Positions 1,360-3,068 of a stretch of 8,892 nt of DNA are shown here, piece after piece. The stretch is from a bacterium. Lineage in GTDB: Bacteria; Thermosulfidibacterota; Thermosulfidibacteria; Thermosulfidibacterales; Thermosulfidibacteraceae. Position numbers and translations under genes: made by a program. The DNA lies in NCBI GenBank assembly GCA_027022065.1, contig JALVZS010000115.1, forward strand, positions 1 to 8,892, given 5' to 3'. Every line of letters starts with the position of its first letter. Within the stretch, counting starts at the first letter, position 1. The notes beneath the pieces are model-generated. The model was not told where the DNA came from. It was given only the letters and a program-made list of their open reading frames with translations, and made no database searches.

Positions 1360-1983
1360 TTAATGGTGTTCTTCTGGTTCTTCCTCCCATCCTGTTATCA
1401 TTGCCTTAAAGTGGGCAAGGGGAGTGTGTCCTAGGGTTGCAAGGTAAAAGTGAGCTATTATAAAGGACGCAAAGAAGAAGAAGAGCAGTACATGAATGGT
1501 GTCTATGACTTTTATGCCTCCGAAGAAGTTTATGATGCTGGAAAACTTCACTGGGTATAGGAGGAAGAGACCTGTAAGTATTTGTATGGGCAATAGGAGA
1601 AGCATAATGTTGAGGTAGGCAGTTTTCTGGAGAGGATTGAACTTGTTTTCAGGGGTTGGGTGGAAGGGGTTTGGCTTACCGAGGAAAATTTCAAAGCTGT
1701 AAAATTTTATCTGCCTTATGGCTCCGTGGGCCAGCTCTTCTACGGTGGGGAAGTAGGTTTTGATCTTTCCTGTTCCTACATAATAGGCGAACCACAGGAT
1801 GAAGTCCAGAGCAACTATTATCCCCACTATGTTGTGGAATCTTACTGCCTGATCAAGGGGGATAGCCTTTGTGTAATCTGCGAATCTGATAAAGACCCCG
1901 GAGATTACCAGTAAGGTAATGCATGCAGCGTGAATCCAATGCCATATTCTTACGGGTATGGGATGCAAATATATCCTCTTCAT
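1360..1983 (-). CDS. Four-helix membrane cytochrome b (FdnI/HydC/thiosulfate-reductase b-subunit type)
   Basis: A 207-residue diheme-type cytochrome b that should carry electrons between the membrane quinone pool and a periplasmic partner. It begins with [16 protein letters not shown], the signature start of Ni/Fe-hydrogenase, formate dehydrogenase and thiosulfate reductase b subunits. Hydrophobic helices lie at about 18-34, 50-69, 122-143 and 159-182. Candidate heme-ligating histidines are H15/H18 (helix 1), H50 (helix 2), H164 and H178 (helix 4). The C-terminus is acidic (EEEPEEHH). The ATG overlaps the stop of the upstream heptaheme cytochrome gene (ATGA at 1980-1983), and a good AGGAGG lies 8 bases before the start (1992-1997). 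No molybdopterin, iron-sulfur or hydrogenase subunit is encoded in the window, so the partner is most simply the adjacent cytochrome c. The physiological substrate is unknown. Confidence 0.87.
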
Positions 1984-3068
1984 TTGTTCTTCCTCCTAAG
2001 AGGTATTGTTAACATGCGAATTGTTCCATGCCCTCCTGCAAAGGCTATTCCACCAAGCACTATAAGTAATCCTATTATGTCTATCACCTTTATCCTAGTT
2101 GCTGAGATGGCGTAAAAGTGTCCTACATGGAAGGAGGTGAGGGCTGCTTTGCTTACAGGATATGTTTCTGCGGTTTTGTCCCCTTTCCCTAAGACCAATT
2201 GTACATTGGAAAGTATGGAAGATTTCTCAGAGTGGCATTTGGAGCACTCTTTAATGGCCTTTTCTTTCGTGATGCTGTGGACTGAGGGATCCATGTCCAC
2301 AACAAGCTCCCCCATAAAAGCGGCGTGAATCCCTTTCTTTTTCAGTATGGCAAGGGCAGTGGCAAGCTCTTCAGTATCAAGTTTGCCGTTTTTGTTTTTG
2401 TCCAGCTTTTCTAGAAAATCTTCGTATGTTGCACCTAAAGCTTCAAGGATCTTTTTGGAGGGTATGACTTCTTCAGTTATGGGATTGTAAAACCTCAGTG
2501 CTACAAATTTAGGGGCTTCAGGGGAATGGCATACGGAGCACTCTACACGGGCAAAATGGAACTCTTTTTGAGGAAGCCAGTTGTGACTTTTTAGAGGATC
2601 GTGACACCTTAGACAGAATTTGTGATCTCTTTCATCTACCGTTAGCGCAGCGCTTCTCTCAGTGTAGTGGTAGCTGTGGCAGTTGAAGCATTCAGGAGCT
2701 TTTGGAGATATGCTTTTTGAGTGCACGCTTTCTTCAACAGATTCCTGCTCACTATCGTGGCAGTCGGAGCAGTTTACCTTTGCTACAGGCACCTTGTGGG
2801 GGACCTCTTTTTCGTAGTTGAGCTTTGTGATGTCTGAGTGGCAGTCGGTGCATGCTATCTCGTTAGTGCCGTGCACAGAGACCTTGAACTTGTCTGGATT
2901 TACATATAGGGACTTCACCTTACCGTTAGGAAGCTCTACGGTGAAATCCGGATCCCCGTGGCAGTCAAGGCATTCGCTGTTCTCAATGGCAAATGCTCCT
3001 AGGGAAAAGAGAAATAAGAAAATCACTCCAAACACAATAAAAGCTAAAGATTTCCCTGAGGCTTTCAT
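1980..3068 (-). CDS. Heptaheme c-type cytochrome with EF-hand loop and C-terminal membrane anchor
   Basis: A 362-residue exported multiheme cytochrome. A signal peptide covers residues 1-27 (cleavage after AFA). Seven CXXCH heme-attachment motifs start at C33, C73, C100, C127, C152, C177 and C275; all 14 cysteines of the protein are in these motifs. Extra histidines (for example H66, H91, H116, H134, H149, H162, H171, H264, H314, H317) could serve as sixth ligands. Between hemes 6 and 7 is a 93-residue Cys-free insert holding the EF-hand loop [12 protein letters not shown] (223-234). A transmembrane helix at about 328-345 is followed by a basic tail (RRKNK), giving a large periplasmic domain anchored at its C-terminus. 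The ATG at 3068 follows AAGGAGGG at a 9-base distance. It is the first gene of a two-gene operon with a cytochrome b, so it probably relays electrons to or from quinones. Relatives include the cytochrome c3/NapC-NrfH-like group, but no specific family name is certain. Confidence 0.88.

Follow-up and report, generated by a model that had tools for sequence, protein, structure and literature searches.

A putative structural calcium site in the CbcA-type heptaheme cytochrome of a minimal CbcBA pair

Introduction

CbcBA is an inner-membrane oxidoreductase that exchanges electrons between the quinone pool and periplasmic cytochromes. It is active at low potential in Geobacter, and a reverse operation has been proposed for the sulfate-reducing bacteria that partner ANME archaea (PMC12307469, PMC10553843, PMC12977616). 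With this complex, Geobacter-type bacteria can respire close to the energetic limit; it also serves as a metagenome marker for extracellular electron transfer. Here we describe a CbcBA-like gene pair in an 8,892-nt stretch of DNA (hereafter the window), whose heptaheme cytochrome carries an EF-hand loop in an insert between hemes 6 and 7. Our literature search found no paper joining a multiheme or heptaheme cytochrome with an EF-hand, nor one describing an EF-hand in CbcA; the nearest by wording dealt with Ca2+ binding by PilY1, which a separate cytochrome promotes in Myxococcus (PMC8833165). Three papers that mention an EF hand together with Geobacter and cytochrome concern other topics, judging by their titles. 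The loop is a trait of the CbcA family that appears undescribed in the literature searched, in a complex whose type is already known.

Results

A heptaheme cytochrome c gene coupled to a cytochrome b gene

The features of the locus discussed below are the following.

1980-3068, minus strand: CbcA-like heptaheme c-type cytochrome gene, 362 aa
2247-2525, minus strand: insert between hemes 6 and 7, residues 182-274 (93 residues, Cys-free), from the AlphaFold2 model and motif positions
2367-2402, minus strand: EF-hand loop, residues 223-234, with D223, N225, N227 and E234 at ligand positions 1, 3, 5 and 12
2277-2279, minus strand: H264, a near-invariant His of the insert in alignments and a candidate distal heme ligand
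1360-1983, minus strand: CbcB-like membrane cytochrome b (PF01292, Ni_hydr_CYTB, E 4e-24)

The larger reading frame encodes seven CXXCH motifs, with Cys at residues 33, 73, 100, 127, 152, 177 and 275. Inspection of the N-terminus points to a signal peptide at about residues 1-27, and the AlphaFold2 model places a single transmembrane-type helix at the C-terminus (about 327-361). An initial annotation made from the sequence alone had noted the seven motifs and placed the Cys-free stretch at residues 182-274, as confirmed here. It had also described the protein as a periplasmic electron carrier, which covers only part of the picture: the C-terminal helix anchors it to the membrane, and a cytochrome b gene overlaps its own. 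A soluble periplasmic carrier is ruled out by this membrane helix together with the coupled cytochrome b gene.

The stop codon of the cytochrome c gene and the start codon of the cytochrome b gene share 4 bases (ATGA, 1980-1983), and the two genes are therefore probably translationally coupled. Six orthologues from the same order (52-56% identity) carry both genes. Among the homologues open to checking, nearly all have a cytochrome b gene directly downstream or fused to the cytochrome c gene. A motif search found no cytochrome b downstream in L034, L160 and L175, with little downstream sequence available for L160. Fusions of CbcA and CbcB in one reading frame of about 600-640 aa occur in L037 (6001-7719), L105, L120, L123, L124 and L131, from Oryzomonas and some Desulfuromonadia genomes. 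The neighboring genes in the window encode a periplasmic binding protein and groES/groEL, and a plasmid search returned no match.

The C-terminal membrane helix contains a GGHxxxR motif; of the 76 family modules, 75 keep its H347 (bases 2028-2030) and 72 keep R351. In the partner CbcB, H347 may contact a heme b or the quinone site.

The locus is a CbcBA-type pair

Judging by sequence and gene order, the 1980-3068 product is a CbcA-type subunit of a CbcBA quinone:cytochrome oxidoreductase: it combines seven CXXCH motifs and a signal peptide with an adjacent cytochrome b gene and whole-length homology to members of cbcABCDE operons. None of cbcC, cbcD and cbcE, which accompany cbcAB in those operons, lies within the 8,892 nt, and on the same grounds the window holds a minimal CbcBA pair. 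Because these three genes are missing from the window and the literature takes CbcBA as a functional pair, we classified the locus as CbcBA-type rather than as a CbcABCDE operon. Homologues from Geobacteraceae (L036 and L037) align with the window protein at 26-27% identity, and a profile search based on the alignment recovered Desulfuromonadia homologues at E values down to 1e-114.

The best sequence match in the PDB was 28pb_A, a 278-aa protein named 'Cytochrome c' (profile E 5e-21). The match covers hemes 1-7 and the insert, spans profile positions 32-314 at about 26% identity in the aligned part, and brings the loop of 28pb_A, DTNNDNYISLAE, into register with the EF-hand loop of the window. 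Its three closest relatives among the genomes searched, which do not include the genome of 28pb_A itself, are 66-76% identical to it (L183-L185). They encode in order a 7-heme cytochrome c, a cytochrome b, a 12-CXXCH cytochrome, a 1-heme cytochrome c and a protein of about 210 aa. This order fits the cbcABCDE operon as published, where the annotation gives CbcC 11 hemes (PMC10470525), and the gene neighbors of these relatives suggest that 28pb_A is a CbcA. The initial annotation regarded the layout as unfamiliar, which is not supported: the protein belongs to the CbcA type, and both insert and loop recur in 28pb_A, a homologue of solved structure.

The EF-hand loop is conserved across the family

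The window protein contains a single full match to the PROSITE pattern PS00018, at residue 223. The canonical EF-hand loop that the initial annotation had read at residues 223-234 was thus confirmed, position included. Scores against Pfam profiles were marginal. EF-hand_1 (PF00036) matched residues 216-240 of the whole protein with E 4e-4 and 20.1 bits, against a gathering score of 25.4. When the insert was scanned alone, EF-hand_7 reached E 5e-6 and 27.1 bits (cut-off 30) and EF-hand_1 reached E 5e-5 and 23.1 bits (25.4). That the window protein stays below the Pfam EF-hand gathering scores counts against reading the loop as a Ca2+ site. The insert of the homologue L030, also scanned alone, scored above the EF-hand_1 gathering score (27.1 versus 25.4).

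We then compared 76 aligned family modules from several phyla, a set that includes near relatives and does not represent independent events. All 76 have D at loop position 1, and 75 have E at position 12. At position 3, 74 modules have N or D; at position 5, 75 have D, N or S; and the full PS00018 pattern is present in 69. The three most conserved columns of residues 182-274 are those of D223 (1.00), E234 (0.99) and H264 (0.93). The H264 column holds His in 71 modules, and in the other five a His stands one residue earlier. In an alignment of 14 sequences with identity down to 26%, L191, D223, E234 and H264 are the only invariant columns of the insert, and N225 is nearly so. The insert is variable overall and best conserved at the putative Ca2+-ligand positions, and homologues retain the ligand residues whose loss the initial annotation had named as evidence against a calcium site. 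A lineage-specific insertion is ruled out, as the insert and loop are present in Geobacteraceae, in Desulfobulbaceae and in 28pb_A.

Clear loss of the loop was seen in a single aligned module, L035 (2356-3945), a 9-heme Rhodocyclaceae protein that retains the insert and the His. Since the insert and His persist there without the loop, Ca2+ is not indispensable for the fold. L035 is thus a naturally occurring contrast against which the role of the loop site could be judged. Where modules are repeated, the loop is repeated with them: two 13-heme tandem-module proteins, L031 (5902-7980) and L032 (4993-7020), and the partial tandem-module protein L034 (1-1404) have an EF loop in each copy of the insert. 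All three come from Thermodesulfobacteriota/Deltaproteobacteria MAGs. A Thermodesulfobacterium MAG encodes a 25-heme protein (L040, 4819-7533) that ends in this insert-plus-heme module; the EF loop there, DYNNDGIIQKDE, is intact, and a cytochrome b gene follows.

The homologues were found by scanning genome contigs and carry the labels Aquificota, Deferribacteres, WOR-3, Thermodesulfobacteriota, Desulfobulbaceae and Geobacteraceae. Seven close orthologues (L021-L025, L030 and L033; 46-56% identity) are spread over the first four of these labels. The taxonomy labels of these MAGs are in conflict, because such close orthologues sit under different phyla.

The insert is predicted to form a hairpin capped by one EF-hand

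The structure of the protein was predicted with AlphaFold2 from 14 aligned sequences (mean pLDDT 77.6 for the whole protein). In the insert, the model contains a strand (187-195), a helix (204-211), a second helix (218-222), the loop (223-231), a third helix (232-244) and a second strand (250-257), with a pLDDT of 93-95 over residues 201-250 and about 94 at the helix-loop-helix. The insert predicted alone gave the same elements at a pLDDT of 62, with helices 215-222 and 232-244 flanking the loop. A helix-loop-helix around residues 223-234, whose absence from a predicted structure the initial annotation would have held against the loop, was found in both models. The insert is predicted to be a two-stranded beta-hairpin capped by one EF-hand; going by their order, the two strands would pair with each other. 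A second, degenerate EF-hand at residues 195-211 is unsupported, as both models give strand-turn-helix there.

Searches of the full model and the insert model with Foldseek and VIA-align gave weak EF-hand matches, with a VIA Z of about 3 at best and Foldseek E values above 1. EF-hand proteins such as calmodulin, S100 and polcalcin recur among the weak fold matches, which neither prove nor exclude an EF-hand fold. 28pb did not turn up in the fold-search library, which ends in April 2026.

Discussion

A probable structural calcium site in the insert

The conservation pattern and the model together make it likely that the locus encodes a minimal CbcBA complex whose EF-hand-capped insert holds one structural, permanently occupied Ca2+ site. 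In such a complex, CbcB would trade electrons with the quinone pool. CbcA, tethered next to CbcB by the C-terminal helix, would relay electrons along its periplasmic hemes in a direction that we infer. Ca2+ would be held by D223, N225, N227, the backbone carbonyl of residue 229 and a bidentate E234, with the site presumably occupied. Bound Ca2+ would lock the EF-hand cap, and the locked cap would rigidify the hairpin, which leads back to H264. This His probably serves as distal ligand to a heme near the insert, in which case a fixed cap would also fix that heme.

Glu at position 12 of an EF loop favors Ca2+ over Mg2+. Periplasmic Ca2+ follows the concentration outside, and the periplasm usually offers enough of it for constant occupancy. 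We prefer a structural Ca2+ site because no other residues of the insert are as well conserved as the ligands, because E at position 12 is Ca2+-selective and because periplasmic Ca2+ is sufficient. Near-universal conservation and the expected periplasmic calcium levels likewise make a structural site likelier than a switch.

Alternative readings

The EF-hand could instead be a calcium sensor, in which Ca2+ binding and release shift the hairpin or the H264-ligated heme and thereby gate the exit of electrons from CbcBA. The single EF-hand does adjoin the near-invariant His, and the Ca2+ ligands are kept across phyla; however, a site exposed to periplasmic Ca2+ would usually be saturated and an unpaired EF-hand tends to be structural, which leaves this reading unlikely. 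Its broader form is that CbcBA is calcium-responsive: the Ca2+-loaded cap would set the geometry or potential of the H264 heme, and environmental calcium would gate the quinone-periplasm step of extracellular electron transfer in several phyla. We consider this rather improbable.

It also seems improbable that the cap serves as a docking surface, shaped by Ca2+, for a periplasmic cytochrome, CbcC or a second CbcA. In favor of docking, the insert is compact, lies outside the heme motifs and occurs with and without the rest of cbcCDE. Yet apart from the ligands and a few core positions, most of the cap is highly variable, and the loop of the window is equally well conserved with no cbcCDE next door.

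The loop might further be an EF-hand-like structural turn that binds no Ca2+ in vivo, or that binds another ion such as Mg2+. The marginal Pfam scores would fit such a turn, as would the variation at loop position 6, where Gly is found in 51 of 76 modules and H or R in two Aquificota-labelled homologues. We consider this quite doubtful, as only a role as Ca2+ ligands readily accounts for the E at position 12 (75 of 76 modules) and the D or N at positions 3 and 5.

Finally, although the motif is short and the Pfam match of the single sequence falls under threshold, a chance match in a Lys/Asp-rich stretch can be virtually dismissed: the pattern arose in 35 of 200,000 shuffled inserts (and 24 of 20,000 whole-protein shuffles), and the homologue alignment, in which 75 of 76 modules preserve the ligand pattern, refutes it.

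A structural Ca2+ site would explain the purpose of the large insert, and chelators would then have to be avoided during purification; a regulatory site would constitute a new control point. Conserved in Geobacteraceae, Desulfobulbaceae and uncultivated lineages alike, and present even in every tandem copy, the putative calcium site is a testable part of the complex, and the deposited structure 28pb could show it.

Comparison with known systems

The window protein resembles CbcA of the CbcBA/CbcABCDE systems of Geobacter sulfurreducens and G. metallireducens (Gmet_2928-2932) in its seven hemes, its C-terminal helix and the cytochrome b gene directly downstream. Like the Geobacteraceae homologues, it has an EF loop in a Cys-free insert that separates hemes 6 and 7. 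It differs in sequence (about 26-27% identity to the Geobacteraceae homologues) and in setting, with a periplasmic binding protein and groES/groEL as neighbors in place of cbcC, cbcD and cbcE. To 28pb_A it is alike in the insert, the loop and heme 7, although identity is only about 26% in the aligned part. With the EF-hand family (PF00036, PS00018) it has in common the canonical 12-residue loop and a predicted helix-loop-helix, whereas its EF-hand would be unpaired and sit on a beta-hairpin of a multiheme cytochrome rather than in a helical EF pair. Its partner matches the family of formate dehydrogenase gamma and Ni,Fe-hydrogenase cytochrome b (PF01292). Cytochromes b of this family exchange electrons with quinone via a neighboring subunit that has one membrane helix; in the window the electron partner is a heptaheme cytochrome c and not an Fe-S subunit.
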